Shown piece by piece: positions 16,019-60,640 of a DNA stretch of 64,000 bases. Within the stretch, counting starts at the first letter, position 1. Each line of letters begins with the position of its first letter. The notes beneath the pieces were generated by a model that was not told where the DNA came from, did no database searches, and saw nothing but the letters and a program-made list of their open reading frames with translations. This DNA is from Halorussus caseinilyticus. Its GTDB lineage: Archaea > Halobacteriota > Halobacteria > Halobacteriales > Haladaptataceae. The translations under genes were made by a program, and so were the position numbers. The DNA is taken from positions 3,348,001 to 3,412,000 of the forward strand of contig NZ_CP119809.1 in assembly GCF_029338395.1 (NCBI RefSeq). Direction: 5' to 3'.

Positions 16019-16215
16019 AGAGGAGCTAGCTTCAGGCTTGAATTGTGGAGGACGAGAGGAGCTAGCTTCAGGCTTGAGCCAATCATACCGCAACCGCGAC
16101 CGCACCGCCACCGCGGGCCACACGCCTCCCCAACCGACTCGCTCACTGTGTTCGCTCGTCCCTCGCGCGGACGGGCGCGGCCACGAGAGGCCGCGCCCGC
16201 ACGCGCCGACGTGGA
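16019..16215 (+). repeat. Dispersed hairpin repeat family B, copy B1
   Basis: Two copies of the core GCTAGCTTCAGGCTTGA (16026 and 16062, 36 bp apart), the second followed by GCCAATCATACC, then ACCGC-type tandem bases, CCTCCCCAACCGACTCGCTCACT, and a hairpin CGGGCGCGGCC / GGCCGCGCCCG (16172-16182 / 16189-16199). A short ACGCCGACGTGGAAAA repeat follows. The whole 15794-16456 gap holds only this repeat and an AT-rich tract (about 15880-15940); no gene is supported. Confidence 0.82.
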
Positions 16216-16456
16216 AAATCAGCACGTAGCGCACGCCGACGTGGAAAACCCCCGGAGCGCACGCTCGAACGGAGAACCCTCTAGCCACCGCACAAACCGG
16301 CGACAGCATGAGGCTAACTGCGGTGGCCAATTTTGCGAGACGCACCGAGACGTATCTTTTGGGGTCACTACCGCGGTCCACGAGGTCTTTCGACCGGCGA
16401 AGGCGGTAGAAAAGTGGAAAGGTATTTGCCCGCGGGCCTACCACTTGCGACTAATT

Positions 16457-18952
16457 GTGAGTGACTTACTGTCAATCTCGAATCTGCGGACGCAGTTCAA
16501 CACCGAACGCGGTGTGGTCGAGGCGGTAGACGACTTCGACCTGTCGATTCGGGAGGGTGAGACGGTCGGTCTCGTGGGCGAGTCCGGGTCGGGCAAGAGC
16601 GTCAGCGCCCTGTCGCTGATGCAACTGGTCGAGGACCCCGGCGAAATCGTGAGCGGCGAAGCGACGTTCCGCCACCAAGGGTTGACCGACGAGTTCGCCG
16701 AGCGCTACCCGACCGGCGTTGGCGAGTTCGTCTTCCCCGACGAGGGGTACATCGACCTGCTCGCCGCGCCCGAGAACGCGATGCGCGAGATTCGCGGCGG
16801 CGAGATGAGCATGATTTTCCAAGACCCGATGACCTCGCTCAACCCCGCGCTGACCGTGGGCGAGCAAGTCGCCGAGAGCCTCCGCCTCCACCAGTACGGG
16901 GGCCAGCGCAAGGACTCGTGGTGGAACGCGGTCCGGGAAATCGCGCCGAGTCTCGGCGGGAAGGACATCGACGAGGAGGTCCTACAGGACACCATCGACA
17001 TGCTCGAAGAGGTCGGCATCCCCGAACCCACCGAGCGAGTCGAGGAGTACCCCCACGAGTTCTCCGGCGGGATGCGCCAGCGCGTCCTCATCGCCATCGC
17101 GCTGGCCTGCCAGCCGAAACTGCTCGTCGCCGACGAACCCACCACCGCGCTCGACGTGACGATTCAGGCCCAGATTCTCGACCTCATCAACGACTTGCAG
17201 GACGAACTCGGCATGTCGGTCCTGTTCATCACCCACGACCTCGGCGTCGTCGCCGAAACCTGCGACCGCGTGGCCGTGATGTACGCGGGCGACATCGTGG
17301 AGTTCGGTCCCGTGGACGAAATCTTCCACAACCCGAGTCACCCCTACACCTACGCGCTACTGGAGTCCATCCCCCAAGAGGACAAACAGCGACTCACTCC
17401 CATCGAGGGCAACGTCCCGGACCTCATCGACATGCCTCAGGGCTGTCACTTCGCGCCGCGGTGTCCGTGGGCCCAACCCGAGTGTACCGAGGGCGAGATT
17501 CCGAACCTCCAGCACGGTCCCGACGACGTGGACCACCGCGCCAAGTGCGTCCTCGAAGACTTCGACACGAGTCAGTACGGCGAGGACCTAGAGAGCATCA
17601 CGACCGGCGACCACGAAATCGGCGACCGACTCCTCGAAGTGGACGGCATGAAGAAGCACTTCTCGCGGGCCGACGGACTGCTAGACGAGTGGCTCTCCGA
17701 CGAAATCGAGAGCGTGAAAGCCGTAGACGGCGTGAGCTTCGACATCTACGAGGGCGAGACGGTCGGACTCGTCGGCGAGTCCGGATGCGGGAAGTCCACC
17801 GCGGGTCGAACTCTGCTCCACCTCGAAGAACCCACCGACGGCCGCATCGTGTTTCAAGACACCAACCTCTCGGAACTGGACCGCGAGGAGTTGCGCGACA
17901 AGCGCAAGGACATGCAGATGATTTTCCAAGACCCGCTGTCGAGTCTCGACCCGCGGATGACGGTGGGTCAGATTATCGCCGAACCCCTCAAGATTCACGC
18001 CCTGCCCGACGAGGCACCGCCGGAGGGAATGTCGAAGAAGCAACAGCGTAGGAATCGGGTCGCCGAACTCATGGAGGCGGTGGGTCTCGAACCGGGCCAG
18101 TACGACCGCTACCCCCACGAAATCTCCGGTGGCCAGCGCCAGCGTGTCGGCATCGCCCGAGCGCTCGCGGTCGACCCCGACTTCATCGTCGCCGACGAAC
18201 CCGTCTCGGCGCTGGACGTGTCGGTGCAGGCCCAGATTCTCAACCTACTGGAGGACCTGCAGGAGGAGTTCGGTCTGACCTACCTCTTCATCGCTCACGA
18301 CCTGAGCGTCGTCCGCCACATCTCCGACCGCATCGCGGTGATGTATCTGGGCGAAATCGTGGAAGTCGCCGACACCGACGAACTGTTCGCCGACCCCAAA
18401 CACCCCTACACGCAGGCGTTGCTCTCGGCGATTCCGGAACCCGACCCCCGCATCGACACCGACGACCGGGTTATCCTCGAAGGCGACGTGCCCTCGCCCA
18501 TCGACCCGCCGTCGGGGTGTCACTTCCGGACCCGGTGTCCCCAAATCATCCCGCCCGAGGGTCTCGACATCGAACAGGACGCCTACCGCGAGGTGATGGA
18601 CTACCGCGAACGCGTCGAGGACCGCGCCATCGACCTAGACGCCGTGTGGGAGAAGGCCGCTGGCGGCGACGGTGCGCGGCCAGAGACCACCGCGGCGGCC
18701 GACGGCGGACGCCCCGGTGCCTCCGCCTCGGCGTTCAAGCAGGTCCTCTGGAACCGCCTGTTCGACGCGGAACCGACGGGCGAACCCCGCGCCCTCGTCG
18801 AGGAGTCGTTCGACCACCTCGCCGACGGCGACTGGGAGCGCGCCGAGTCGCTCCTCCGCGACAACTTCGAGAGTGTCTGCGAGCGGAAGGGACCGGTCCT
18901 ACAGGACGAGGCCCACCCCGCGGCCTGTCACCTCTACGACCAACCCGAGTAG
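16457..18952 (+). CDS. Peptide/opine-type ABC transporter ATPase, two ATP-binding domains fused
   Basis: 831 residues equal to DppD and DppF joined head to tail. Domain 1 has Walker A GESGSGKS (41-48), signature FSGGMRQRV and Walker [13 protein letters not shown]. Domain 2 has GESGCGKST (about 440), ISGGQRQRV and [12 protein letters not shown]. Each is followed by the oligopeptide-transporter tail with GCHFAPRCP or [10 protein letters not shown] roughly 100-residue acidic extension (with a [15 protein letters not shown] segment) ends the protein. The GTG at 16457 is chosen because similarity begins there; no ATG lies closer. It energises the permeases at 22673 and 23683 and heads the operon. 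One fused chain presumably supplies both nucleotide-binding sites. Confidence 0.9.
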
Positions 18953-19063
18953 CGACTCGACGGCGGCGATGGTTCCGCACTGCACCGAGATTTGAACCAA
19001 CCGAATCGCCCGCCAATCCCCTCCCGTACGCTTTTATCCAAAATGATTGATTTGTAGCAGTGG

Positions 19064-20731
19064 ATGACTTCAAACGACACATCCGTTTCAAGACGGAACT
19101 TGCTGAAGGCGGCCGGTGGAGCGGCGGCGTCGGCGTCGGTTGCCGGGTACGTCGATACCGGGAGTGCGGAGGACGTACAGCAACAGGGCGGTGGGACGCT
19201 CACGTACGCGCGCGGGAACGACTCGGGTACGCTCGACCCGCAGAACACGACCAGCGGCGAGGACGTGAAGGTCACGAACCAGATTTACGACAGACTCATC
19301 GAGTTCAAACCGGGCGAGTCCTCGCTGGTCGCGGGGTTGGCGACGGAGTGGAACCTCGAAGGCCAGCAGGCGACGGTCACGATGCGGGAGGGCGCTACCT
19401 TCCACGACGGTAGCGAGTGTACGGTAGACGACTTCATCGCCACGTACCGGCGGTTCACCGACTCGAACTACGAGTACTATCCGGGCGACGAGTACGTCTC
19501 GTCGTACGGTCCGTTCACGCTGGGTAACTGGGTCAGCGGCATCGAGAAGAACGGCGACTACCAGATGACCATCCAGTTGGAACAGCGCTACGCGCCGTTC
19601 CTCCGGAACCTCGCCATGTTCGCCTCCAGCGTCCTCTCCGAACAGGCGATACAGGAGCGCGGCACGGACCTCAGTCGGAACCCGATGGGGACCGGTCCCT
19701 TCCAGTTCGAGAACTGGGACACCGGCAACCAGCGCATCCGCCTGTCGGCCTACGGCGACTACTGGGGCGAGGGACCGAACGTGGACGAAGTGGTGTTCAC
19801 CGCCATCGGGTCGAACACGACTCGCGCCCAGACGCTGGTCTCGGGCGGCGCGAACGTCATCGACGGCTTGGGTTCGCAGGCCGCCCAAATCGTGGACAAC
19901 TCCCGGAACGCCCAACTGCTGGAGAAGCAGGGCATCAACATCGGCTATCTGGCGTTCAACATGGCTCGCGTCGAGGCGTTCCGCGAGAAGCAGGTCCGGC
20001 AGGCCATCAGTTACGCCATCAACACGAAGGCCATCGTGGACACCATCTTCCGGGGCATCGCGGTGCAGGCGAGTCAACCCATCCCGTCGAACGTCCTCGG
20101 CTACAACGAGGAACTCGACCCGTACCCATACGACCCCGAACGGGCACAGCAGATGCTCGACGACGCCGGGTACGGCGACGGCTTCACCTTCGAGTTGGCG
20201 ACGTTCCAGAACCCGCGGGCGTACAATCCCTCGCCGATTCAGGCGGCCCAGACGGTCAAGTCGAACCTCGAACAGGTCGGCATCACGGTCAACATCAACC
20301 AGCAACCGTTCAACCCCTTCCTGAACTACACCAGTACCGGGAAGCACGACGCCTGTTTCCTCGGGTGGATGACCGACAACGCCGACCCGGACAACTTCTA
20401 CTACGCCCTGCTCCACCCCGGCATCCCGCAGGACCAAGTGCCTCAGGGACAGGACTGGGTTGGCTGGGACACCGACGGGTTCAACACGCTCGACGTGGCG
20501 GCGTGGGCCAACACCGAATTCATGAACGTCACCGAAGAGGCCCAGCAGACGTACAACCAACAGGAGCGCGCCGACCTGTACAAGCAGGCGGCCCAAATCG
20601 CCCACGAGGAGGCACCGTGGGTGTTCATGGACCACGCCAAGGAACTCCGCGGCGTCGGCAACAACGTCGAGAACTTCGTCGTCGCGCCCATCGGCGGGCC
20701 GTTCCTCAAGCAGGTTCGGTTGACGGGATAG
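19064..20731 (+). CDS. ABC transporter substrate-binding protein, family 5 (no lipobox Cys)
   Basis: 555 residues. A Tat signal SRRNLLKAAGG is followed by SVAGYVDT where the sister protein has LAGC, so the lipid-attachment cysteine is replaced by Tyr. The mature domain is a peptide/nickel-type binding protein (GGTLTYARGNDSGTLDPQ, then LRVGMREG-like VTMREGATFHDGSE, FLGWMTDNADPDNFYY). It is about two-thirds identical by eye to the next gene, clearly a tandem duplication. It is probably exported folded by Tat. Without the Cys it may be released, or retained by the uncleaved helix. Ligand unknown, likely peptides or a related solute. Confidence 0.9.
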   Translation: MTSNDTSVSRRNLLKAAGGAAASASVAGYVDTGSAEDVQQQGGGTLTYARGNDSGTLDPQNTTSGEDVKVTNQIYDRLIEFKPGESSLVAGLATEWNLEGQQATVTMREGATFHDGSECTVDDFIATYRRFTDSNYEYYPGDEYVSSYGPFTLGNWVSGIEKNGDYQMTIQLEQRYAPFLRNLAMFASSVLSEQAIQERGTDLSRNPMGTGPFQFENWDTGNQRIRLSAYGDYWGEGPNVDEVVFTAIGSNTTRAQTLVSGGANVIDGLGSQAAQIVDNSRNAQLLEKQGINIGYLAFNMARVEAFREKQVRQAISYAINTKAIVDTIFRGIAVQASQPIPSNVLGYNEELDPYPYDPERAQQMLDDAGYGDGFTFELATFQNPRAYNPSPIQAAQTVKSNLEQVGITVNINQQPFNPFLNYTSTGKHDACFLGWMTDNADPDNFYYALLHPGIPQDQVPQGQDWVGWDTDGFNTLDVAAWANTEFMNVTEEAQQTYNQQERADLYKQAAQIAHEEAPWVFMDHAKELRGVGNNVENFVVAPIGGPFLKQVRLTG

Positions 20732-20846
20732 CCGTCGCTTCTCTTTCGACCGCCGTCGGAAGGGAAACTCAATACCGAGTGATTGTTTTATTTTAACTTC
20801 TCACAGGTTCGGCATACTTATATGGGAGGTACGAGCATGGTGGCCT

Positions 20847-22586
20847 ATGGCGACAGATGACAGTGTCAAGCGGCGTAGTTTCTTGAAGGCGGCCGGTGGT
20901 GCGGCGGCGGCGGCGACGCTCGCCGGGTGTACCGGCGGCGACGGCGAGGGCGACTCGACCGAGACCACCGAATCGACCGACGGGACGACCCAGAGCGGTG
21001 AAACCGAGGAGACGACCGAGGAGTCGTCGGGCGAGGGCGGGACGCTCACGTTCGCCCGCGGGAACGACTCGGGTACCCTCGACTTCCAGAACACGACCAG
21101 CGGCGAGGACGCCAAGGTCACGAACCAGATTTACGACGGTCTCATCGAGTTCGAACCGGGCAAGACCTCGCTCAAGGCCGGACTCGCCACCGACTGGAGC
21201 GTGGACGGCAAGACGGTCAGTCTGACTCTCCGCGAGGGCGTCAAGTTCCACAACGGCGACGAGTTTACCGCCGAGGACTACGTGGCGACCTACCGCCGGT
21301 TCGTGGACAAGGAGTACGAGTACTTCCCCGGTCAGGAGTACGCCTCGTCGTACGGACCCTACGCACTCGGCCGCTGGATTGATTCGGTCGAGAAGGCCGG
21401 TACCTACGAGGTCACCATCAAACTCGGTCAGGCGTACTCGCCGATTCTGAAGAACCTCGCCATGTTCTGTTCGAAGGTCCACTCGCTGAAGGCCATCAAG
21501 GAACACGGTAAGGACCTCGCCAAGAACCCGGTCGGGACCGGCCCGTTCAAGTTCGATAACTGGGACACCGGCAACCAGCGCATCCGCCTCACCAAAAACG
21601 AGAACTACTGGGGCGAGACCAAGGCCAAGGTAGACGAAGTGGTGTTCACCGCCATCGGGTCGAACACGACCCGCGCCCAGACGCTCATCTCGGGCGGCGC
21701 GGACATCATCGACGGTCTGGGCGCGCAGTCGTCCCAAATCGTGGACAAGTCCGACAAGGCCGACCTCCTCGAACAACCCGGCATCAACGTCGGCTACATG
21801 GCGTTCAACATGTCGAAGTTCGAGCCGTTCCGCAAGAAGAAGGTTCGGCAAGCCGTCAACTACGCCATCAACACGAAGAACATCGTGGACACCATCTTCA
21901 AGGGCATCGCGTCGCAGGCGAGTCAACCCATCCCCGAGAGCGTGATGGGGTACAACGAGGACATCGACCCGTACCCGCAGGACCTCGAGAAGGCCAAGTC
22001 GCTCCTCGAAGAGGCCGGATACAGCGACGGTTTCGAGTTCGAGCTGGCGACGTTCAAGAATCCGCGGACCTACAACCCCTCGCCCAAGCAGGCCGCGCAG
22101 GTCGTCAAGTCGAACCTCAACGAGGTCGGCATCACGGTCAACATCAAGACGATGCCGTTCAACCCCTTCCTCGACTACACCGACAACTACAAACACGACG
22201 CCTGTTTCCTCGGATGGATGACCGACAACGGCGACCCGGACAACTTCTACTACGCCCTGCTCCACCCCGGCGTGGACCGGAGCGACGTTCCGGACGGACA
22301 GAATTGGGTCAACCCGGACGACCACCCGGACACCATCAACACGCTCGACGCGGCGGCGTGGGCCAACACCGAGTTCATGAAACTCACCGAGGAAGCCCAA
22401 GCCTCCTACAAGACGAGCGAGCGCAAGCCCAAGTACCAGAAGGCTGGCGAAATCTTCCACGAGGAGTGCCCGTGGGTCGCGCTGGACCACGCGAAGGACC
22501 TCCGCGGCGTCAGTAGCGGCGTGGAAGGCTTCATGGTTCCGCCAATCGGCGGCCCGTTCCTCAACCACGTCTCGCTGAAGCAGTAG
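20847..22586 (+). CDS. ABC transporter substrate-binding lipoprotein, family 5
   Basis: 579 residues. A Tat signal (VKRRSFLKAAGG) leads to a proper lipobox TLAGC, then a Ser/Thr/Glu linker (about residues 27-60) that spaces the domain from the membrane. The binding domain is a close paralogue of the protein encoded just upstream (shared GNDSGTLDFQNTTSGEDAKV, AIGSNTTRAQTLISGGAD, NFYYALLHPG). It delivers solute to the permeases that follow at 22673. It lies in the same operon as the fused ATPase. A T-rich stretch TCTTTTTTG at 22638-22646 just after the gene may attenuate transcription into the permeases. Confidence 0.92.
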   Translation: MATDDSVKRRSFLKAAGGAAAAATLAGCTGGDGEGDSTETTESTDGTTQSGETEETTEESSGEGGTLTFARGNDSGTLDFQNTTSGEDAKVTNQIYDGLIEFEPGKTSLKAGLATDWSVDGKTVSLTLREGVKFHNGDEFTAEDYVATYRRFVDKEYEYFPGQEYASSYGPYALGRWIDSVEKAGTYEVTIKLGQAYSPILKNLAMFCSKVHSLKAIKEHGKDLAKNPVGTGPFKFDNWDTGNQRIRLTKNENYWGETKAKVDEVVFTAIGSNTTRAQTLISGGADIIDGLGAQSSQIVDKSDKADLLEQPGINVGYMAFNMSKFEPFRKKKVRQAVNYAINTKNIVDTIFKGIASQASQPIPESVMGYNEDIDPYPQDLEKAKSLLEEAGYSDGFEFELATFKNPRTYNPSPKQAAQVVKSNLNEVGITVNIKTMPFNPFLDYTDNYKHDACFLGWMTDNGDPDNFYYALLHPGVDRSDVPDGQNWVNPDDHPDTINTLDAAAWANTEFMKLTEEAQASYKTSERKPKYQKAGEIFHEECPWVALDHAKDLRGVSSGVEGFMVPPIGGPFLNHVSLKQ

Positions 22587-22672
22587 TCTCGCCGACGATT
22601 CGCCACCGTCGCCGACTGACGGCGGGGCGGTAGCGAGTCTTTTTTGACCCCTGCGGTCAATTTTGCGAGTGA

Positions 22673-24639: not shown

Positions 24640-24641
24640 CG

Positions 24642-27815: not shown

Positions 27816-27942
27816 TCGTGGTCGGGCAGTTCGGGGGTGGGCGTCCTAAGCGTCCCGGTTCACCTTTTCGGCGTGGATAGCGTCCCGGCTCGTTCGCCGT
27901 ACTTTGTCGGGAAGGTGAGACCACCCGCAGGTATCGCGGTGA

Positions 27943-28260
27943 AGAACCCTCAGAAAGCCCCCGCCCGGTCGCTACGCATCGTTGCCCCAGGAACCGCCAC
28001 CGTGAAGGCTCAGAAAGCCCCCACCCGCTCGCTACGCATCGTTGCCCCAGGAACCGCCACCGTGAAGGCTCAGAAAGCCCCCGCCCGCTCGCGGTCGCTG
28101 ACCGGCATATCCTCGTTCGCTTCGCTCACTTCGGATAGGGGCCGGTCAGACGACTGAAGTGGACGCGACCGGGCGGCCCCTTTCGTCCACCCGAACCGCG
28201 GCGGTTGGTCGGTCGAGCGTTCGCTGGTGGATTGATGGGTTGAGCGTTCGCTGGTGGAGG
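27943..28260. repeat. Dispersed hairpin repeat family A, copy A3 with 60-bp tandem left arm
   Basis: The left-arm sequence CAGAAAGCCCCCGCCCG is repeated at exact 60-bp spacing (27951, 28011, 28071); the intervening bases contain CGCTACGCATCGTTGCCCC. The final unit continues into the stem: GTCGCTGACCGGCATATCC pairs with GGATAGGGGCCGGTCAGACGAC, so the inner arm has the same fold as A2 with different bases. It ends CGACCGGGCGGCCCCTTTCGTCCACC and a GAGCGTTCGCTGG(T/C)GG tail repeat. The minus-strand mini open frame of A2 is broken here by TGA at codon 13. No gene between 27816 and 28320. Confidence 0.82.
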
Positions 28261-33091: not shown

Positions 33092-33345
33092 GGACGGGAG
33101 GACGCGATGGGATGGAGGTGAGCGACGGGAGGACGCGATGGGATGGAGGTGAGCGACGGGAGGACGCGATGGGAGAGAACGAGAAGACGGGAAGAGCTAG
33201 CTTCAGGCTCGTACCAATCAGGACCGCCCCGCACCGCCACCGCGGGCCACACGCCTCCCCAACCGATTCGCTCACTCGCTCCGCTCGTTCGCTCATCCCT
33301 CGCGCGGGTGGGCGCGGCCACTTGCGGGCCGCGCCCGCACGCACC
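33092..33345 (+). repeat. Dispersed hairpin repeat family B, copy B2 with 31-bp array
   Basis: A 31-bp unit (GACGGGAGGACGCGATGGGA plus TGGAGGTGAGC) repeats about 2.6 times, then GCTAGCTTCAGGCTCGTACCAATCAG, CCGCACCGCCACCGCGGGCC, CCTCCCCAACCGATTCGCTCACTCG, and a hairpin GGGCGCGGCC / GGCCGCGCCC (33310-33319 / 33327-33336). An AT-rich tract follows (about 33360-33410). There is no gene from 33001 to 33595. Confidence 0.83.
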
Positions 33346-33455
33346 GACCGGTGAGATTGGCAGATAATTGCTATAGAATCCGAAATATTTCTAAGAGCAA
33401 TACATAGATGGTCGAACCAGTCGCGTCACCCGACCCGGCACGAGCCATCGTCACC

Positions 33456-33493
33456 GCGCGCCGACGGCGCGGGAATCCGCGCCGTCGGCGCGC
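33456..33493. repeat. 17-bp perfect inverted repeat
   Basis: GCGCGCCGACGGCGCGG, loop GAAT, and its exact complement, 100 bp upstream of pncB. It could be a terminator or operator; position does not decide. Confidence 0.5.
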
Positions 33494-35590: not shown

Positions 35591-36026
35591 CGGCAGAGGG
35601 AGCCGAGTTCCCGCGAGGGCGCTGGCACACGCCAGCGCCCGCGTGAGGAAAGTCCCCACCGTCCGGGCAGGCGACCGGACGCAAGTCCGGAGCGGGAGAC
35701 CGCTGGCTCTGGAACAGAAACGAGACCGCTCTCCCCGACCCATGAGGTGCGCGAACCCGAACCGAACGAAGGCTCACGCCGAGTAAAGGAACGGGGAGTT
35801 AACCCACCGAGGGCGTGGCGAAGCCACGCGCACGGCGGCTCTGCCGCCGTGCGCTCCGTGCTGGCGACGCCAGCACGGAGACGGGAGAGAATGGATGGAA
35901 CGGTGAATCCTCGCCGGTGCAAGTCCGCGCTGTGCGATGCTCAGCATCGCACGGTAGCCCGGACGCTCGCGCGGACGCTCAGCCGAATACTCGGACGAAC
36001 AGAAGGGGGCTTACTCCCCTCAGCCG
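35591..36026 (+). ncRNA. rnpB: RNase P RNA (catalytic RNA, M1-type archaeal)
   Basis: Trims the 5' leader of pre-tRNA. Conserved region I is GAGGAAAGTCCCCACC (35644-35659) and conserved region V is ACAGAAGGGGGCTTAC (35999-36014), which form P4. P1 is closed by CGGCAGAGGG at the 5' end and CCCCTCAGCCG at the 3' end. Between them lie GC-rich P3 (GGGCGCTGGC / GCCAGCGCCC), P12-like arms and a GAACCGAACGAAGGC segment. A TATA-like CCTTAAACC about 28 bp before position 35591 and TTTT after 36026 fit a stand-alone RNA gene. Length about 436 nt is typical for haloarchaea. Confidence 0.95.
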
Positions 36027-41967: not shown

Positions 41968-41975
41968 CTCTCTCT

Positions 41976-48059: not shown

Positions 48060-48189
48060 CAGGTTAGCTACGTCTTGAACCAATCAGTCCGCATCTGCAC
48101 TGCACTGCACCGCACCGCATCCGCACGGCACCGCAACTGCATCCGCACCGCCACCGCGCCGCGTTCGCGCGGAACCGCGCGAACGCGGC
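48060..48189 (+). repeat. Dispersed hairpin repeat family B, copy B3
   Basis: GTTAGCTACGTCTTGAACCAATCAG (divergent core; first half TAGCTACGTC), a long tract of TGCACTGCACTGCACCGCAC-type bases, then the hairpin GCCGCGTTCGCGCGG / CCGCGCGAACGCGGC (48158-48172 / 48175-48189). The same stem with a TT loop occurs in copy B4 in opposite orientation. An AT-rich tract (47900-47955) lies just left. No gene between 47831 and 48274. Confidence 0.75.
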
Positions 48190-50145: not shown

Positions 50146-50244
50146 GCCGGGAAAGAGGGCGAGCGCGGACTTGTAGCCGGGGGATTCGGAAGGAAAGACG
50201 GTGACCGTCCGGAGTCGTGAAGTGTCGCCGACCACGGGACGTGC

Positions 50245-50425
50245 GCCGCGTTCGCGCGGTTCCGCGCGAACGCGGCGCGGGGAGGCACGGGGCGGCGGTG
50301 CTGTGGGACGGCGGTGCTGTGGGGCGGCGGTGCTGTGGGACGGCGGTGCTGTGGGGCGGCGGTGCTGTGGGACGGCGGTGCTGTGGGGCGGCGGTCGCGG
50401 TCGTGATTGGCTCAAGCCTGTTGCT
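50245..50425 (-). repeat. Dispersed hairpin repeat family B, copy B4 (inverted) with 16-bp array
   Basis: Left to right: hairpin GCCGCGTTCGCGCGG-TT-CCGCGCGAACGCGGC (50245-50276); GGGGAGGCACGG; six units of CGGCGGTGCTGTGGG plus alternating A or G (50293-50388); then CGGTCGCGGTCGTGATTGGC TCAAGCCTGTTGCTAG, the reverse of the family core. The array replaces the ACCGC-rich tract of other copies. This is the only copy on the minus strand. No gene between 50146 and 50500. Confidence 0.82.
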
Positions 50426-50500
50426 AGTATTCACGAGACGCTTATCGTCCGCGACGGAGGGGCCACACGCCTTATTCAGGTTCCGGGCGTACCTCCCGTC

Positions 50501-50815
50501 ATGAGTGACTCCGGCGACGACGACCGAACGCTCGGTCTCGACTTCAGCAACGTCGAAGACGACCTCGAAAGCGAGGACTACCCCATCTCCGCCGACGAAC
50601 TGCTCGACCGCTACGGCGACCGCGAAATCGGCACCGAGGACGGCTCGGAGTCGTTCGGCGAGGTGCTGGTGACGGGCGGCGACGAGGAGTTCGAGTCCGC
50701 CGACGAGGTGAAACAGACGGTCCTCAACCGCGTCGGCGGCGAGGCCGTGGGTCGGCGGGGCTACTCCGACAGAGGGGCCGGAAACGAGGGTGAGAACACG
50801 GACGAGTCGTTCTAG
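50501..50815 (+). CDS. DUF5789 family protein
   Basis: 104 residues, MSDSGDDDRTLGLDFSNVED, then DYPISADELLDRYGDREIGT, ESFGEVLVTGGDEEFESADE and NRVGGEAVGRRGYSDRG, the whole DUF5789 core (a small HTH-like acidic domain restricted to haloarchaea). Function unknown. Its end overlaps by four bases the minus-strand mini open frame of repeat A4. Confidence 0.88.
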   Translation: MSDSGDDDRTLGLDFSNVEDDLESEDYPISADELLDRYGDREIGTEDGSESFGEVLVTGGDEEFESADEVKQTVLNRVGGEAVGRRGYSDRGAGNEGENTDESF

Positions 50816-50925
50816 AGGTGTAGCACGTTCGGAAAGTCCCCGCTACGCAACGCCACTGTTACCGCCAGAATCGTAGTGACGAAGGTCCAGAAAGCCCCCG
50901 CCCGCTCGCGGTCGCTGGCCGACAT
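50812..50925 (-). CDS. Mini open frame inside repeat A4, 37 residues, putative membrane peptide
   Basis: MSASDRERAGAFWTFVTT continues as ILAVTVALRSGDFPNVLHL. Copy A2 has MSLSDRERAGAFWAFVTT with VPAVAVLNRR. Of 27 aligned codons, four differ only at silent third positions (TCA/TCG, ACA/ACG, GCA/GCG, GTT/GTA) while the hydrophobic character is kept. That is what selection on a peptide would leave, but the sample is small. Its start codon lies inside the repeat stem. Copy A3 is broken by a stop. Speculative. Confidence 0.25.
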   Translation of the reverse strand: MSASDRERAGAFWTFVTTILAVTVALRSGDFPNVLHL

Positions 50926-51150
50926 ATCCTCGACTCGCTTCGCTCATCGGCAGACGTTCCTGCTCGCTTCGCCCCGCGGGTGTGCGATTGCCGAGGTCTG
51001 GGTCGCTTCGCTCCGCAGACCGTCTCGGATAGTGGTCGCTGAGACGACCACGCGTTGTGCGACCGGGCGGCCCCTTTATCCACCCTGTCGGCTGTTTGGC
51101 CGTCGAGCCACTGTCGGCCGTTTGGCCGAGCGTTCGCTGGCGGTTGGTCG
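50870..51150. repeat. Dispersed hairpin repeat family A, copy A4 (carries insert C)
   Basis: Opens AGAAAGCCCCCGCCCGCTCG (50890-50909) and closes GCGACCGGGCGGCCCCTTTA TCCACC (51058-51083). Compared with A2 it carries a 73-bp version of insert C (50948-51020) in the loop, not in the arm as in A1. Tail repeats TGTCGGCTGTTTGGCCG and TGTCGGCCGTTTGGCCG follow. No other gene between 50816 and 51219. Confidence 0.82.
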
Positions 51151-51219
51151 GGTGCTTTCGTTGTCAATGGGTCTGCCGTCAGGGGAACGCCTAACCGCAG
51201 AGGGTGCGAACCACCCAGC

Positions 51220-52194: not shown

Positions 52195-52195
52195 G

Positions 52196-54036: not shown

Positions 54037-54045
54037 ATAATAAAG

Positions 54046-54705: not shown

Positions 54706-55184
54706 CCTCGAACGAACTGGCGGAAGCACTCGGTGAGGCGGAGGACGCCTTCCAGCGCAGGCCCGAAAATCCGGAGGTCGGATTGGAGTACGTCTCCGAT
54801 TCGTCGGTTCTCCAGTTACGGAAGGCGTGTCGGCTCCTCGACGCCGCGGGATTCCTCCTCGACCGTAATGGCCACTTCACCGTCATCATCGAGGCGTCGT
54901 TCGTCGCCATCGAGCGGTCGATTCAGTTCTACGTCGAGGAAAAGGGATACGACGTTGCCGGTCAGCGACACACCGAGGTCTACGACGAGGGCGTCCGTGC
55001 AGGACTGTTCACGCAGGACGTCGCCGACCGACTCGAAAAGCTCTGGGTCGAGAATCGGTCGGAATCGTACTATCGGACGGGCATCGCTGGCGAGTACCGC
55101 GCCGAGACGGTCTTCTCGCTCGCCGAGACGCTTCACGAGGAGGTCGTCGCGTTGACGCGGACTCAGGACTGCCTCTGCGGGTAA
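54702..55184 (+). CDS. HEPN-domain protein, toxin candidate
   Basis: 160 residues, four-helix HEPN-like: LQLRKACRLLDAAGFLLDRN, FTVIIEASFVAIERSIQFYV, YDEGVRAGLFTQDVADRLEK, then WVENRSESYYRTGIAGEY. Active HepT toxins have an Arg-x4-His-x-Tyr motif; here the matching stretch is E-N-R-S-E-S-Y-Y, where Tyr124 may correspond to the AMPylated Tyr while Arg and His of the RNase motif seem changed. It may therefore be an atypical or inactive nuclease, or my alignment is off by one turn. Overlaps its partner by ATGA. Confidence 0.72.
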   Translation: MTSNELAEALGEAEDAFQRRPENPEVGLEYVSDSSVLQLRKACRLLDAAGFLLDRNGHFTVIIEASFVAIERSIQFYVEEKGYDVAGQRHTEVYDEGVRAGLFTQDVADRLEKLWVENRSESYYRTGIAGEYRAETVFSLAETLHEEVVALTRTQDCLCG

Positions 55185-55232
55185 TACGCCGCCCCCTTAA
55201 TTTCAAAAGTGAGGGGGAAACTAGAGGGGACC

Positions 55233-55889
55233 ATGTTCTCTCACGAGAACTACGACGCGTTTGTCGATAATTTACTCACTTGGTACGACGATAACGGAAG
55301 GCACGACCTCCCTTGGCGCGAGAACGATGCGTCACCGTTTGAGGTACTCGTCGCCGAGCTCATGCTCCAGCAGACGTCCGTCGAACAGGTGCAGGAGGTA
55401 TTCGAGGAGTTCGTCGAGAAGTTTCCGGACCCCGAATCGGTAGTCGCGGTCTCCGAGAAAGAGATTACCGAGGAGATAGAGCCGCTCGGCTCACAGAAGC
55501 GAACGAAGTACTTCCGGAAAGCATCGCACGACATTATCGAACAGCACGGCGGGAATGTACCGGACGAGCAATCTGAATTACTCGACTTGCACGGCGTCGG
55601 CGAGTACACTGCGGCCTCGGTACTCGCTCACGCCCACGGGAAAGACGCCGTCGCCGTAGATACGAACGTGGCGCGAGTTCTATCGCGGGTGTTCGGACTC
55701 GACGCGGCCGACGAACCCAGCGCGGCCGAAAACTGGGACCTTGCCGAGCGGTCCGCTCCGGCGGGGAGATGTAGCGATTATCTGCACGCGCTCATCGATT
55801 TCGGGAGTGCAGTCTGCACGGCGTCGAACCCGAAGTGTTCAGACTGTCCGCTCGCCGATTTATGCGAATATCATGAACAAGGAGCGTAG
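55233..55889 (+). CDS. MutY-like adenine DNA glycosylase, short form with 4Fe-4S cluster
   Basis: 218 residues. Catalytic ELMLQQTSVEQVQEVFEEF (Glu42), helix-hairpin-helix LHGVGEYTAAS (Tyr125, not the Lys of endonuclease III), conserved Asp143 (AVDTNVARVLSRVFG) and Cys195-x6-Cys202-x2-Cys205-x5-Cys211 for the cluster. It excises A opposite 8-oxoG, or perhaps T from T:G mismatches as in Mig-type enzymes. The C-terminal NUDIX-like recognition domain of full MutY is absent. Ribosome-binding GAGGGG at 55224-55229 fits the start chosen. GC is lower than the core genome. It lies directly after the nucleotidyltransferase/HEPN pair. Confidence 0.85.
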   Translation: MFSHENYDAFVDNLLTWYDDNGRHDLPWRENDASPFEVLVAELMLQQTSVEQVQEVFEEFVEKFPDPESVVAVSEKEITEEIEPLGSQKRTKYFRKASHDIIEQHGGNVPDEQSELLDLHGVGEYTAASVLAHAHGKDAVAVDTNVARVLSRVFGLDAADEPSAAENWDLAERSAPAGRCSDYLHALIDFGSAVCTASNPKCSDCPLADLCEYHEQGA

Positions 55890-56094
55890 CTGATCCCTCC
55901 TTCCGTTTCTGAAATCCGTGGGGTGAGAGTATCGAACGAGCGAGAAGTCGGACATCCTCAGGCAAGTCAGAGAGATTTGACCGCACGAGAGAGGTGCTTC
56001 CGTTCGACTCCCGAACGAAGAGAAAGGGAGACAAAATGCCAATTCAGTAGAATAAGGCCGTAAGACGGTAGAAATACGGATATAAGTGTTCACG

Positions 56095-56167
56095 CGGGCG
56101 GCATGGGATTTGAACCCATGGCCTCTTGGTCCGGAACCAAGCGTTCTGTCCGCTGAACTAGCCGCCC
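56095..56167 (-). tRNA. tRNA-Arg (anticodon CCG)
   Basis: 73 nt on the minus strand. Acceptor GGGCGGC pairs with GCCGCCC; anticodon arm CTTGG-TTCCGGA-CCAAG gives CCG (reads CGG); T-arm CATGGGTTCAAATCCCATG. No intron, CCA not encoded. It borders the accessory segment and could have served as an integration site. Confidence 0.95.
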
Positions 56168-56218
56168 TCATACGGACGTACTTCGCTCGCGGGCTTAACG
56201 ATTGTGATAGCCGCAGGT

Positions 56219-57658
56219 TTAGTCTTCGCTCACTGTCGAGTCGCCGTCGGTCGGCATGCACACCCGTTTGTCGTCGTCGATGACGGCGTTCTTCCACGTC
56301 CCGCGGGTGAACCACGCTCCGGCGGCGATAGCCCCGACGACGTGGCCGAGTGCGACGCCAATCCAGATTCCGGTCGGGCCGAGGGTCGTCTCAAACGCGA
56401 GGAAGTAGACGGTCGGCACGCGGATGAGCCACAGCGTTATCATCGAGAACGCCATCGCGGTCTTGGTGTTGCCCGCGCCGCGGTAGGCCCCGACTAACAC
56501 TTGGAAGACCCCGATAAAGGCGAACTCGACCGTCCGAATCCGGAGGTACTGCGAGGCGTGTCCGACGGTTTCGGCCGCTTCCGCCGTTCCGGTCGCCATG
56601 AACACCGAGACGATGGGTTCGGGGAACGCCGCGGCGACGACGGCCAACACGAACATGACGCCCGCACCGACGTTCGCCGCGAGTTTGACCGCACTCTCGG
56701 CCCGGTCTGGGTTGTCCGCGCCGAGGTTCTGGCCGACCATCGTGTTGGTCGCCTTGCCCAAACCCACCGCCGGGAGGAAGACCAGCGAGATGAGGCGGTT
56801 GCCCAGACCGTAGGCGGCGATGACCGACGGGTCGAACGTCACTATCATCACCGTAATCGTCAGCATCGCCAGCGCACCCGCCGACTGCTCTACGGCCGCC
56901 GGAATCCCGATGCGAACGATGTCCCGGACGTAATCGAGGTCGGGGACGAGGTGGTCGAGTCTGACGTTCGGTCCGGCGTCCGCGAAAAACAGCACGTAGA
57001 CGCCGACGAGACCACCGACTGCGCGAGCGATGAGCGTTGCGAGGGCCGCACCCTCGATGCCCATCTCGGCGAACGGGCCGACGCCGAAGACGAGGATGGG
57101 GTCCAAGACCACGTTCAGCGCGACCGAAAGCGCCATCACGCGCATCGGCGTCCGGGTGTCACCATACCCCCGCAGGAGCGCCGAGAACGCCAGAAAGCCG
57201 AACATGAACGGCAGGCCGAGGAAGAATATCTCCATGTACTGCTCGGCCAACGGGACGACCTGCGCGGCGGTGGCGGCGTTGCTGGGGAACAGCGAGAGCA
57301 TCGGTCCGGACCCGAAGTGACCGACCACGCTCAGGACGACGCCGATTGCGACCACGAATCCGAGCGTCTGGCCCGCTACTTTCCCCGCCGACCCGTCGCT
57401 GTCTGCGCCCATGTACTGGGCGACCAAGGTGCTTCCCGCGACGTTAAACCCGCCGCCGAACGCGATGAGGAAGAAGATAATCGGGAACGCGAGGCTAATT
57501 GCCCCGACCGCGTGGGCCGAGTACCGGCCCAACCAGAACGCATCGGCGACGTTGTACGTCACCTGCAACAGTTGCGTGACGACGATTGGCCACGCGAGGT
57601 GGAAGAGAGGGCGCGCTAACCCACCATCAGTGATACCGTCGGATTGCGTCGATGCCAC
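56219..57658 (-). CDS. MATE-family efflux transporter (copy 2)
   Basis: 479 residues, a close paralogue of copy 1 (GGLARPLFHLAWPIVVTQLL; AFSALLRGYGDTRTPMRVMA; AYRGAGNTKTAMAFSMITLW). Same strand and similar over its whole length, including near-identical DNA stretches. Na+/H+-coupled efflux. The two genes are direct repeats that could recombine and delete the segment between them. Confidence 0.92.
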   Translation of the reverse strand: MASTQSDGITDGGLARPLFHLAWPIVVTQLLQVTYNVADAFWLGRYSAHAVGAISLAFPIIFFLIAFGGGFNVAGSTLVAQYMGADSDGSAGKVAGQTLGFVVAIGVVLSVVGHFGSGPMLSLFPSNAATAAQVVPLAEQYMEIFFLGLPFMFGFLAFSALLRGYGDTRTPMRVMALSVALNVVLDPILVFGVGPFAEMGIEGAALATLIARAVGGLVGVYVLFFADAGPNVRLDHLVPDLDYVRDIVRIGIPAAVEQSAGALAMLTITVMIVTFDPSVIAAYGLGNRLISLVFLPAVGLGKATNTMVGQNLGADNPDRAESAVKLAANVGAGVMFVLAVVAAAFPEPIVSVFMATGTAEAAETVGHASQYLRIRTVEFAFIGVFQVLVGAYRGAGNTKTAMAFSMITLWLIRVPTVYFLAFETTLGPTGIWIGVALGHVVGAIAAGAWFTRGTWKNAVIDDDKRVCMPTDGDSTVSED

Positions 57659-57749
57659 TGTTCATTCTCAGAACTGCTTGGGATTTTAATGCTTCGGGTT
57701 TAAATTGCAGTCCGTCCCTCGTGAAAGAGTCTCACCCGGTTGCGAACTG

Positions 57750-58325
57750 TTAGGGTGTCTCGTTGGTTTCGAGCGAGAAGTCGTCCGTCGGGTACGCCGT
57801 ACACGTCAGGACGTATCCCTTCTCAACTTCGTCTTCGCCGAGCGTCTCGTTGTTGCTGTGCTGGACGTATTCGTTGGCGTTGCCGTCTTGGACCTTCCCA
57901 CCGCAGGAGAGACACTGCCCCTGCCGACAGGCGTAGGGCAAGTCCCATCCCTCGTCTTCGCCAGCGTCCAACAGGTTCTCGTTGTTGGCGACTTCGATGG
58001 TCTCGCCTTCGTTGACGTACTCGATTTCGTAGTACTCCACCTCGTCGTCGGAGATGGAGGCGGGGTCGAAACCGGCCTCTTCCTCGTCCTCGCCTTCGAG
58101 TTCGCCTTCGGCACCACCGCCGACCGCGACCGCACCGCCACCGCCGCCGATGGAGCGGTTCATCGGTTCGGGGAAGTCGGTTTCCGGCACGGTCTCGGCC
58201 CGGCGTTCGAGGACCTCTTGGGAGATGTCGTCGGGAGTTCGCCACTCGGTGCCCTCCGAGTAGTGGAGCGCCACCACGATGACGACGAGCGTCAGCCCGA
58301 GTCCCAGACCCAGTGCGTCTACCAT
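57750..58325 (-). CDS. Membrane-anchored 2Fe-2S ferredoxin
   Basis: 191 residues. One N-terminal helix (LGLGLGLTLVVIVVALHY) anchors it, followed by a Gly/Ala/Glu linker (about 55-95). The ferredoxin domain binds 2Fe-2S through Cys133, Cys138, Cys141 and Cys175 (LPYACRQGQCLSCGG, LTCTAY). The plant-type order C-x4-C-x2-C-x33-C is right. It probably passes electrons to a membrane or surface enzyme. The start at 58325 is set by the helix; a longer version lacks support. Confidence 0.9.
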   Translation of the reverse strand: MVDALGLGLGLTLVVIVVALHYSEGTEWRTPDDISQEVLERRAETVPETDFPEPMNRSIGGGGGAVAVGGGAEGELEGEDEEEAGFDPASISDDEVEYYEIEYVNEGETIEVANNENLLDAGEDEGWDLPYACRQGQCLSCGGKVQDGNANEYVQHSNNETLGEDEVEKGYVLTCTAYPTDDFSLETNETP

Positions 58326-58394
58326 GCGCGGGACTACGGAAGGGTGGTTTAACAGCATTGTGATTACTGGCCGCCCTCCCGAAACGGGAACCCG

Positions 58395-58820
58395 CTACTC
58401 GTCGGCGTCCCGCACCTCGACCACGCCACTCCGCCGGACCGTCACCGCGTGCCCGTCGAGTACGAACGTGACCCGCCCGTCGCCCGGCGTCTCGCCCGCC
58501 CCTCGAAACAGCGCGTCGAGAGCGTCGGGGTCGATAGCCGAGTACAGCGGCCCGACTTCCGTCGGGCCCTCGCCCGTGACCGTCGAGAGTGCTTCGACGA
58601 CGGCGATACTCGGCGGCGTGGAACTGTCGAACGTCGTCCGGTAGGCGTCGTCTTCCGAATCCATGCTATCGTTTCGGGACTCCCTCCAATCGCGCTCGCT
58701 TCGTTCGGGTCGTGCAGTGGTCGGTGCAGTGTGAGAAGCGTCGGTCGTCGCCGGGTCGGTCGGACCGACTGCCGACTCTTCGGAGGCCGCCTGAGAAGTT
58801 GGGTTGTTGCCACGACTCAT
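58395..58820 (-). CDS. HalOD1 output-domain protein
   Basis: 141 residues. The last 75 form HalOD1: TTFDSSTPPSIAVVEALSTV, GPLYSAIDPDALDALFRGAG, GRVTFVLDGHAVTVRRSGVV. It is an unusual module found as the output of haloarchaeal two-component or bacteriorhodopsin-type regulators; here it stands alone after a low-complexity Ser/Thr/Pro start. A TATA-like TATAAT at about 58869-58874 predicts a transcript starting near 58846, so the ATG at 58820 is used rather than the GTG at 58856. Confidence 0.88.
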   Translation of the reverse strand: MSRGNNPTSQAASEESAVGPTDPATTDASHTAPTTARPERSERDWRESRNDSMDSEDDAYRTTFDSSTPPSIAVVEALSTVTGEGPTEVGPLYSAIDPDALDALFRGAGETPGDGRVTFVLDGHAVTVRRSGVVEVRDADE

Positions 58821-58906
58821 CGTGCGTACTTCGGATACGTCGACTGCGAGATTCACCGTGACGTTTGATTATACAACCCTTTTTTCACCGGGGGTGTAGC
58901 GTCCGG

Positions 58907-59545
58907 CTACTTGACTATCGTCTCGCCGAGCAGTCGGTGGGTCCCCCGCCGGATGCGAGACGCGAACGCCTGTTGGGAGATGTCGAGTTCCGCGGCGACT
59001 TCGGCGAGCGTCACCTTCCGCGGCGAGTCGAAGTATCCCCGTTCGTAGGCGAGTTCCAGCGCCTCGCGCTGTGGGTCGGTCAGTCCGTACGTCTCGCTGT
59101 CCATTGGCGTGAGGTCGTGGACCGCCGTGAGCGTCACCGGAATATCGCGCTCCAGACACACCTCCTGAAAGCGGGCGATGTCCGAACGGTCGTCGCCCCG
59201 GACCTCGAACGTCCAACTCCGTTCGGTTCCGGTCGCCCCCAGAAGCAGGGAGTCGGCTTCGGCGAGCGTCTTGAGAAACCCCTCGTAGTCCGGGTTCCAC
59301 TCGACTTTCAGGAGATACTCGTCGTCTACGCGGTCCACGAGTGCGATGTCACGCACGCCGGGGTGGTTCTCGAAGGCCGCCTCGATGTCGTCTACTCGCG
59401 CCCCGCGAACCCAGAAGTAGGGGATAACCGCGTCTTTCGCGGGCACCAGCCGCTCCAACTCGACGGTCACGTCGGGAAGGTTCTCGAACACCGTTCCGAG
59501 CGGGAACTGGTCGGCTTCGACCCGGAACGTGGCCTCTGTAGCCAT
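58907..59545 (-). CDS. Bat-type HTH-10 transcription regulator
   Basis: 212 residues. N-terminal sensor-like half (FRVEADQFPLGTVFENLPDV), then the C-terminal HTH-10 domain: GLTDPQREALELAYERGYFD, SPRKVTLAEVAAELDISQQA FASRIRRGTHRLL. This is the DNA-binding module of the bacterio-opsin activator and dozens of haloarchaeal regulators. It may control the divergent DJ-1 gene or the HalOD1 protein; neither is shown. Confidence 0.9.
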   Translation of the reverse strand: MATEATFRVEADQFPLGTVFENLPDVTVELERLVPAKDAVIPYFWVRGARVDDIEAAFENHPGVRDIALVDRVDDEYLLKVEWNPDYEGFLKTLAEADSLLLGATGTERSWTFEVRGDDRSDIARFQEVCLERDIPVTLTAVHDLTPMDSETYGLTDPQREALELAYERGYFDSPRKVTLAEVAAELDISQQAFASRIRRGTHRLLGETIVK

Positions 59546-59646
59546 TGCCGTAGTAAAGGACTCGGAGTAAATAGCGGTTTCCCCGCCGTATCGAATCGGA
59601 GACGACGCGAAGCCACGCTTTTGGTCCCGGCGTCCGAGCGTCCGCC

Positions 59647-60252
59647 ATGGCAACCGAAATCGCCGTCGTCATCTACGAGGGTTTCGACGAGATGGACGCC
59701 GTTGGGCCGTTCGAAGTGTTCTCGCACGCGAGCGAACGCGGGTGCGACCTCGACGTGAGCGTCCGAACGCTCGACACCGCCGACCGAGTTACCGCGAGCC
59801 ACGGTCTCACAGTCGCGGTGGACGGCCGACTCGCCGACGCGGACCCGGACCTCGTGGTCGTCCCCGGCGGCGGGTGGAACGACCGCGCCGACGCCAGCGC
59901 GTGGGCCGAGGCCGAACGAGGCGACCTGCCGGACGCTATCGCCGACCTCCACGAGCGAGGCGTGACCCTCGCGGCGGTCTGTACCGGCGGGATGTTGCTC
60001 GCCGAAGCCGGGATTCTGGACGGTCGGCCCGCCGTCACCCACGCGAGCGCGCTGGGCGACCTCCGCGAGACCGACGCAAAGGTCGTAGACGCGCGCGTCG
60101 TGGACGACGGCGACGTGGTGACTGCCGGAGGGATTACTTCGGGGCTGGACTTGGCCCTGCATCTGGTGGGTCGGCTCTGCGGGGAGTCGGTCGCCGAGGA
60201 GGTGGCGACGGCGATGGAGTACGAGCGACGGGGCGAGGTGTACGAGACGTGA
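59647..60252 (+). CDS. DJ-1/PfpI superfamily protein
   Basis: 201 residues. Glu15 (EGFDEMDAVGPFEV) and the nucleophile Cys112 (AAVCTGGMLLAEAG), with VVPGGGWND earlier and GGITSGLDLALHLVGRLCG later. The type is closer to the PfpI/YhbO/transcription-linked (AraC-like) amidase branch than to DJ-1 proper. Possible roles are glyoxalase or isonitrile hydratase. Divergent from the HTH-10 regulator at 59545. Confidence 0.9.
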   Translation: MATEIAVVIYEGFDEMDAVGPFEVFSHASERGCDLDVSVRTLDTADRVTASHGLTVAVDGRLADADPDLVVVPGGGWNDRADASAWAEAERGDLPDAIADLHERGVTLAAVCTGGMLLAEAGILDGRPAVTHASALGDLRETDAKVVDARVVDDGDVVTAGGITSGLDLALHLVGRLCGESVAEEVATAMEYERRGEVYET

Positions 60253-60395
60253 TTCGATTGTCTAAGGATTGGTGAAGATGGATTTTAGCAATGTTTTTAT
60301 TTTTTTAGAATCGGTAGAGTTGTCTCTCCTGTCTCATGTACTGCACACCACTCCACCGCCCCGCACAGCACCGCAAACGCGAACGTGATTACTTT

Positions 60396-60640
60396 GGAGA
60401 CTGAACGCGACTACTGTGAGGACCGAACGCGATTATCTTGAGGACCGAACGCGACTACTGTGAGGACCGAACGCGATTATCTTGAGGACCGAACGCGACT
60501 AGCTTCAGGCTTGAACCAATCATACCGCGACCGCACAGCACCGCACCTCGTCCTCCCCAACCTCCTCACTCCCTTCGCTTCGCTCGGTCGTTCGTCCCTC
60601 GCGTGCGAGGCGCGGCGCTCACGAGCGCCGCGCCCGCACG
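60396..60640 (+). repeat. Dispersed hairpin repeat family B, copy B5 with 22-bp array
   Basis: Five 22-bp units (GAGGACCGAACGCGA followed by alternating TTATCTT or CTACTGT; starts 60396, 60418, 60440, 60462, 60484). The last runs straight into CTAGCTTCAGGCTTGAACCAATCATACC, then ACCGC-type tract, CCTCCCCAACC, and a hairpin CGTGCG-A-GGCGCGGCGCT-CACG-AGCGCCGCGCC-CGCACG (about 60602-60640). An AT-rich tract (about 60285-60330) lies left. No gene from 60253 to 60849. Confidence 0.83.

Follow-up and report, generated by a model that had tools for sequence, protein, structure and literature searches.

The 64,000-nucleotide stretch of the Halorussus caseinilyticus genome analyzed here (NZ_CP119809.1, positions 3,348,001 to 3,412,000; hereafter the window, numbered from its first letter) carries at five places, B1 to B5, copies of a dispersed repeat that we call family B. 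A sequence-only reading of the window had described them as a single element, lying only between genes and made of a conserved core, an ACCGC-rich tract and a terminal GC hairpin whose arms differ between copies and always pair. The quoted hairpin arms are indeed present in the sequence, and they do pair. The core, GCTTCAGGCTTGARCCAATC, was recovered with at most two mismatches at 16065, 33200 and 60502 on the plus strand and at 50405-50424 on the minus strand (four matches in the window against a mean of 0.00 in 100 shuffles), but B3 keeps only a 13-base remnant of it (CTTGAACCAATCA, 48074-48086). As for location, gene models based on our own codon score place B1, B2, B3 and B5 between genes, whereas the right-hand gene of B4 overlaps the element with its model start at 50378; alignment with relatives sets the conserved start of that gene near 50503.

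The five copies do not represent one element, as two kinds had been merged. What had been read as the core is a lineage-specific 5′ head, and the conserved unit is the body that follows it, composed of CCTCCCCARCC, a variable hairpin, TCRTCCCTCGCGCG, a GC hairpin and GCGCGCC, in the orientation in which the sequence-only reading quoted the family; its complement is referred to below as the folding strand. Type 1 copies (B1, B2 and B5) measure approximately 120-190 bp from head to end. Type 2 copies (B3 and B4) are without CCTCCCCAACC and consist of a head, an ACCGC-like tract and one long palindrome instead, which in type 2 copies other than these two is followed by GCGTCCCGTGG; their tails fade, as read from the sequence, in units of about 25-27 bases that start with the element's own tip. 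R1, a covariance model of the folding strand with 97 positions, matches B1, B2 and B5 with expectation values (E) of 2.5e-19 to 5.6e-14, and B3 and B4 at background level only (E 0.4 to 0.9). By eye, the element ends GCTAGCTTCAGG and GCGCGCCGG form no inverted terminal repeats, the head makes at most a 4-bp stem, and both strong hairpins lie in the 3′ half. Some bodies (loci L004, L008, L012, L062 and others) hold an extra perfect hairpin at one site, between TCRTCC and CTCGCGCG, and two more (L026, L089) hold one just before TCRTCC. The features in the window are collected in Table 1, where hairpin F is the terminal GC hairpin and the GA ladder is the variable hairpin.

Table 1. Family B copies in the window and their parts. 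G numbers designate other Halorussus genomes.
Feature	Positions	Strand	Details
B1, type 1	16061..16209	+	head 16061-16085, ACCGC tract, body 16125-16209; R1 78.7 bits, minus strand
B1 GA ladder	16136..16160	-	2 GA steps, ACA triloop; minus-strand fold
B1 terminal GC hairpin F	16173..16198	-	arm pairing
B2 left-flank tandem repeat	33093..33174		31 bp x 2.6
B2, type 1	33196..33347	+	head 33196-33220, ACCGC tract, body 33254-33347; R1 101.9 bits, minus strand
B2 GA ladder	33265..33297	-	3 GA steps, GGA triloop
B2 terminal GC hairpin F	33310..33336	-	GCAA loop on minus strand
B3, type 2	48068..48189	+	degenerate head 48068-48086, ACCGC-like tract 48088-48157, palindrome 48158-48189; R1 background level
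B4, type 2	50190..50458	-	269-bp segment absent from G005, G006, G016; core 50405-50424, tract 50289-50395, palindrome 50245-50276
B5 left-flank tandem repeat	60380..60501		22 bp x 5.5; unit holds degenerate copy of head tip (sequence reading)
B5, type 1	60502..60646	+	core 60502-60521, body 60552-60646; R1 76.0 bits, minus strand
B5 ladder region	60563..60596	-	34 nt, ladder with one extra base
B5 terminal GC hairpin F	60609..60634	-	arm pairing

The idea that the core is the conserved part of the family did not survive wider comparison, as the head is limited to part of one genus and the body occurs without it in other species and genera. Among 59 genomes searched at no more than two mismatches, the head was found in H. 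caseinilyticus and in 7 of 17 other Halorussus genomes, and it was absent from all 41 that belong to other genera; when named genomes were scanned, it was placed in Halorussus salinisoli and H. aquaticus (3 of 24 stretches), the other hits being scattered over bacteria and archaea in a chance-like manner. Moreover, a DNA search with B2 returned many body copies from genomes that have no head match, G005, G010 and G016 among them, and in other genera the sequence upstream of the body is different. The sequence-only reading had counted hairpins without the core as evidence against its element. Such bodies do exist in other species, but that does not imply that head and hairpins are unrelated, because a head that starts with GCTAGCT, has a different middle (e.g., GCTAGCTACTCCCGGTACCTATGAGA) and leads into the same ACCGC tract and body precedes 19 of the 30 bodies that were read elsewhere in Halorussus; the remaining bodies have further heads, or none that was recognised.

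That the fold rather than the sequence is maintained, as had been claimed, is upheld by the terminal hairpin. Parsing by motif anchors succeeded in 89 of 127 bodies (38 were dropped). Hairpin F has an outer GCGCGC stem and a variable, covarying inner stem. Over its nine pairs, 557 of 576 cells are Watson-Crick in 64 H. caseinilyticus copies, against a mean of 475 and a maximum of 497 in 2000 shuffles, and 25 copies from other genomes gave 207 of 225, against a shuffle maximum of 195. This covarying hairpin was the only one noted before; a second one, on the opposite strand, had been overlooked. When the whole body was considered, 96.0% of cells were paired (83.1% when shuffled) and 86 cells showed a double change (24.6 when shuffled), with none of 500 shuffles reaching as high, and RNAalifold, run on a 25-row alignment with no structure given, returned the terminal hairpin together with seven of the nine ladder pairs. 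Altogether, the predicted structure is well supported by comparison.

The second hairpin lies between CCTCCCCARCC and TCRTCC, a region that looks unpaired in the quoted orientation and regular on the complement, where it reads GAC-GA-CC-GA-AC-GA-CC-GGA-GG-GA-GT-GA-GG-GA-GTC and variants thereof. In this GA ladder, two Watson-Crick pairs alternate with an invariant tandem G.A mismatch, and in Halorussus the tip is mostly a GNA triloop. Ladder regions were located 89 times in the 127 bodies, 37 of them being 33 nt long; 34 of these were analyzed after dropping three without GA at positions 4-5 and 8-9, and two spacers are therefore fixed by selection. In the spacer columns beyond those required, GA/AG occurs in 33-34 of 34 rows, and the triloop is GNA in 32. 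Paired cells reached 92.8% (72.4% shuffled), double-change cells numbered 69 (20.3 shuffled) and the covariation score was 0.634 (0.248 shuffled), each of them matched by 0 of 500 shuffles, and slid versions scored far lower. In other genera, 14 of 17 loci of 33 nt gave 122 Watson-Crick pairs, 3 G.T and 1 other, and 10 of the 14 have a GNA loop. Since the 33-base set assumed two spacers and the loci from other genera had come through R1, a further set was collected from two genomes of another genus by searching for nothing but the flanking motifs (the 54 listed of 90 matches, of which 52 were distinct). Its minimum-energy RNA folds contain 93 GA/GA steps, whereas 50 dinucleotide shuffles averaged 3.0 and never exceeded 6, and at least one step is present in 44 of the 52 regions; a triloop closes 24 regions, GNA in 19, and is thus less regular than in Halorussus.

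Within the window, ladders with at least two GA steps were found four times by scanning, and never in 40 random sequences; when each of the 16 dinucleotides was used as spacer, only GA and its complement TC yielded ladders. The minus-strand ladders at 951-985 and 12388-12418 belong to another dispersed family (AGAAAGCCCCCGCCCG...GGATAGGGG...), with copies near 978 and at 12317-12544, 27925-28191 and 50854-51151. The ladder is therefore not private to family B.

Comparison of the two strands shows that the predicted fold belongs to the complement of the quoted orientation, one cue being GA steps on the folding strand versus TC steps on the other. Calculated RNA energy is lower on the complementary strand for 81 of 89 ladders and for 24 of 25 whole bodies. 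Moreover, changes in the outer GCGCGC stem, read on the folding strand, leave G.U in 14 of 150 cells and unpaired positions in 2, and tri- or tetraloops of the G..A form cap hairpin F in 30 of 89 copies on the folding strand and in 0 on the other. The two polymers were compared on six ladders and two bodies, on both strands and with RNA and DNA parameters. With RNA parameters, the folding strand forms the ladder in all six cases, at energies of -5.5 to -11.4 kcal/mol and z of -1.3 to -3.7, and all six are worse than the mean of their own shuffles on the non-folding strand; with DNA parameters, there is little difference between the strands in how well the two bodies fold.

The search with a covariance model, which the sequence-only reading had proposed, finds copies across Halobacteriales. 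R1 matches 88 of 146 relatives, in 33 of 55 genera, at E ≤0.01; 28 candidates were scored per genome, so that counts saturate, and GC-rich palindromes alone reach E 0.003 to 0.05, which makes the weak end of this list unsafe. By our count, the best E is ≤1e-6 in 63 genomes. An exact pattern of the two flanking motifs, leaving the hairpin between them unconstrained, occurs in 74 of the 146 genomes and 23 of the 55 genera, with a maximum of 166 per genome, 75 in H. caseinilyticus and four control hits in all. In 196 genomes sampled evenly over the phylum, R1 gave 15 matches at E ≤1e-4, all in Halobacteriales, and none outside this order. Counts by the exact pattern differ sharply within Halorussus itself, from 0 in G008 and 2 in G013 to 106 in G002 and 111 in G015. 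The core matches the H. caseinilyticus genome 72 times on the plus and 69 times on the minus strand, i.e., 141 times at no more than three mismatches, the reversed-pattern control giving 0 and 3. On contig C1, positions 6658 and 3453058, as well as 22210 and 3468609, look like the same loci at an offset of about 3446400, and L081 and L109 are near-identical; the two ends of the contig appear to share about 37 kb, and copy counts therefore include two duplicates. Plasmid records with a similar stretch come from Halorussus (4), Halobaculum (2), and Haloarcula, Natrinema and Haladaptatus (1 each). Phage records held no match to the element, and viral spread was set aside on this ground. Overall, these dispersed, non-coding elements are best explained as a REP/PATE-type family that spans the haloarchaeal order, with family B as its branch in Halorussus.

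Copies occur all round the chromosome in both orientations. Among 106 copies, 28 lie in convergent, 26 in divergent, 26 in codirectional and 24 in antisense context, with one neighbour unseen in 2, and a single core of the 106 falls inside a predicted open reading frame; in view of this lack of gene-orientation preference, a terminator, an untranslated-region element or a promoter element was ruled out. Copies of like orientation do not cluster along the chromosome (51 switches of 89, 44.8 expected), and no lagging-strand bias was seen. The ends are sharp, identity dropping at once to a background of about 0.3 beyond GCTAGC and GCGCGCC, and the last 20 bases ahead of the head are 72% purine.

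The sites of B2, B4 and B5 were then compared with those of other Halorussus genomes. For B4 (G011 and G017 left out), the flanks abut in G005, G006 and G016, which thus lack the copy, and are separated by 8 bases in G008 and by 12 in G010; G007 and G009 have a type 2 element at the site that points the other way, short remnants are present by our reading in G004 and G013, and other sequence in G012. The region is rearranged in G003, G014 and G015, and the flanks are apart in G001 and G002. At the B2 site, the copy is missing in G003, G004, G009, G014 and G016, where the flanks are separated by 29-56 bases; the distance is 129 in G005 and 169 in G013, the 391 bases in G006 include an ACCGC tract and a head of a type of their own, and in G010 the flanks are on different contigs. 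B5 is missing in G004 and G010, the gap at its site being 24 and 36 bases, respectively, while G005, G006 and G013 carry 760-970 bases of other, coding-looking sequence and the flanks lie 2.4-4.2 kb apart in G003, G009, G014 and G016. Together with the sharp ends, these sites without a copy make a non-autonomous mobile element the best of the three suggestions of the sequence-only reading (a mobile element, a structured RNA or a protein-binding hub), and the unit is likely mobile. Altogether, the earlier observation is partly confirmed and its interpretation partly supported.

Tandem repeats gather at the ends of the element. Within 150 bases, they were found at the 5′ end of 33 and the 3′ end of 22 of 86 copies, and in 2-7 of 86 in more distant bins, which are more genic; the array reaches the element itself in 12 (5′) and 8 (3′) copies. 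In B1, B5, L005 and L103, by eye, the repeated unit includes the element tip, and the nearest unit is the best preserved. These duplications look as if synthesis had slipped or aborted time and again where the folded element stood in the way. A CRISPR-like repeat-spacer origin of tandem heads (67-79 bp spacing) was rejected, as they look like tandem duplications of flank plus head. Inverted pairs of bodies with a short spacer, resembling BIMEs, were observed tail to tail (L161, L162 and L164, in G005) and head to head (L167 in G005, L172 in G006).

Based on these results, the reading we favor, tentatively and with a little less than even confidence, is that family B is a non-autonomous mobile element resembling REP and PATE, and that a putative factor reads it in the form of a folded single strand, either DNA or an RNA copy. 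A single strand exposed as DNA during replication or repair, or made as an RNA copy, would fold; a putative trans-acting factor would recognize the folded strand, and would then copy or move the unit. The end-proximal tandem duplications may arise by polymerase slippage or by abortive rounds at the folded element, and the difference in heads between species points to expansion or homogenisation within lineages.

Several results weigh against this reading. No mobilising enzyme was found: a search of the H. caseinilyticus genome for Y1_Tnp (PF01797; IS200/605, RAYT) gave 0 matches, the control being positive in 5 of 14 named genomes, and the bacterial REP mechanism therefore does not account for the copies at present. 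A search for Y2_Tnp (IS91-type ends) was empty, but its control was equally silent, so that this outcome carries no weight. Among 78 H. caseinilyticus copies with a recognised end, the best of 582 similar-length pairs shares 94% (median 79%), and recent movement is therefore not demonstrated. At B4, the extra DNA extends about 35 and 52 bp past the conserved ends, so that what moved does not coincide exactly with what is conserved, and with its junctions beyond those ends this one site shows at most an ambiguous target duplication of 2 bp; the absence of copies at relatives' sites could, in part, be loss. The comparative statistics are not uniformly favorable either: hairpin F mismatches (5 G.T vs 7 A.C of 576 cells) carry no strand signal, whole-body pair types do not clearly exceed shuffles (167 of 500), ladder pairs with a double change number 7 against 5.3 (59 of 500 shuffles) and ladder pair types 12 against 12.0 (341 of 500). 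Finally, with DNA parameters all six ladders reach 0 to -1.6 kcal/mol on either strand, none clearly beating its shuffles. In DNA, tandem sheared G.A pairs and GNA triloops have an unusual stability that these parameters may not capture; if they do capture it, an unstable ladder speaks against a DNA hairpin, and the energies as computed favor RNA.

In the main rival, the complementary strand of each copy would give rise to a structured non-coding RNA or RNA element, whose ladder and GNRA or GNA loops would be bound by an RNA-binding protein, and the repeat would be kept or spread for that function; we regard this as doubtful, though far from negligible. The fold on one strand only, the ladder obtained in six of six cases with RNA parameters and not with DNA parameters, the G.U cells of the outer stem and the GNRA and GNA loops all speak for it, as does the strong expression reported for a PATE of a halovirus (PMC10544981). 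However, copies show no preference in gene orientation, and read-through therefore cannot supply the folding strand at every copy; no TATA-like signal stands at a set distance in the promoter-side flank (at most 3 of 72 per 20-nt bin), and body counts range from 0 to 166 between related genomes. As for Rfam, a check that the sequence-only reading had proposed, no family reached its gathering score on the elements over the window, and around B2 only (E ≤1) two weak, unrelated hits fell far below that score. The order-wide architecture, the presence of copies all round the chromosome in both orientations and the tandem duplications at the ends, which would be expected of a replication obstacle, could also suit a chromosomal structure element under selection (a fork barrier, or a nucleoid or repair site), with a host protein on the folding strand and spread being incidental. 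We consider it improbable, given the wide variation of counts within one genus, the turnover of positions between species and orientations that are not clustered. Very improbable, as a general account, is that structure is under no selection at all and that arms are kept complementary by template switching within the hairpin, as a mutational by-product. The scarcity of G.T and A.C intermediates in hairpin F (12 of 576 cells), whole hairpins that differ between copies and the tandem duplications around them would fit, and template switching is possible for part of the change in hairpin F; however, it would make the arms perfect complements, and it is contradicted for the ladder, whose GA mismatches stay while the letters between them change in pairs.

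The closest known likeness is to the PATE of Haloquadratum, whose description gives high-copy, transposase-free repeats with palindromes, no inverted terminal repeats and no clear target duplication, including "switch repeats" found in either orientation at one site and other elements sitting inside (PMC3119063). Family B is likewise too short for a transposase, high-copy, palindromic and devoid of inverted terminal repeats, and shows both orientations at one site (B4 in H. caseinilyticus versus G007 and G009). This would also favor a strict PATE, in which the ends of an IS200/IS605-type transposon are fused and the TnpA of that transposon supplies the movement. Such an origin is nevertheless decidedly improbable. 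Y1 was not found in 8 of 18 Halorussus genomes, with body counts of 75 (H. caseinilyticus), 75, 11, 54, 2, 106, 0 and 43, so that five of the eight carry 43 to 106 bodies, and family B is not tied to IS605-type transposons: in 28.7 kb of sequence around nine TnpB-domain matches, one strong R1 hit was found (L120), about one being expected from copy density, for which reason IS605 ends or an omega-RNA were also rejected. Moreover, the strong palindromes of family B, two hairpins, lie on the 3′ side only, in contrast to the palindrome near both ends of PATE, and the passages on PATE do not mention a ladder (PMC3119063). In the same source, SMR-A inserts inside PATE palindromes, and MITE and SMR have inverted terminal repeats (PMC3119063); family B is small, non-coding and dispersed as they are, its extra hairpins resembling SMR-A within PATE, but by our reading it lacks those terminal repeats.

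With bacterial REP/REPIN and RAYT systems, family B shares intergenic, high-copy palindromic repeats, sometimes in inverted pairs. RAYTs read REP as a folded single strand. Family B is larger, however, with two hairpins and no Y1 transposase found in H. caseinilyticus. REP palindromes are reported to carry a GTAG or CGTC tag at their foot (PMC3733652), and RepRanger, a survey of REPs in bacteria and archaea, contains no word starting with "halo" in its main text (PMC12306157). Family B may further be likened to another kind of site. Integron attC sites combine variable sequence, a conserved fold and one active strand; this is an analogy, and no gene-cassette arrays were noted at family B. The titles and abstracts searched, a scope that leaves most subscription journals and supplements outside, held no prior description of the element.

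Other features of the window were recorded as well. CTAG is strongly depleted (31 seen vs 83 expected under a second-order model), and 107 family B heads among the retrieved loci hold 78 CTAG sites; a CTAG methylation mark is a lead only. After B2, at 33456-33493, lies a long GC hairpin (GCGCGCCGACGGCGCGG/CCGCGCCGTCGGCGCGC), apparently a separate palindrome, and right of B5 a 44-bp direct repeat of a gene 3′ end (60682-60725 and 60850-60893, 168 bp apart) surrounds another hairpin. A TnpB-type C-terminal domain (PF07282) was recognized at about 7617-7802 in an open frame of 213 amino acids, in a genome where the search gave no Y1 transposase, and a tRNA scan of 7000-8500 found none. The archaeal RNase P RNA is at 35592-36025 (Rfam RF00373, 131.5 bits).

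If our preferred reading of family B as a mobile element is true, haloarchaea own a genome-wide repeat that resembles REPs and is recognized by the unusual and regular design of its folded single strand, and it would have spread although the transposase behind bacterial REPs is missing; such an element would also account for some of the tandem repeats between genes in these organisms. It is conceivable, although on balance unlikely, that the GA ladder constitutes a nucleic-acid mark of a class of its own, in which fixed tandem G.A steps and freely varying, covarying pairs make up a single-strand code, shared by more than one repeat family across the order and read by a putative protein that drives single-strand-dependent spread without a Y1-type transposase. 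The strict design of the ladder makes a binding assay simple, and body counts of 0 to 166 over 146 genomes make the responsible gene directly searchable by comparison.

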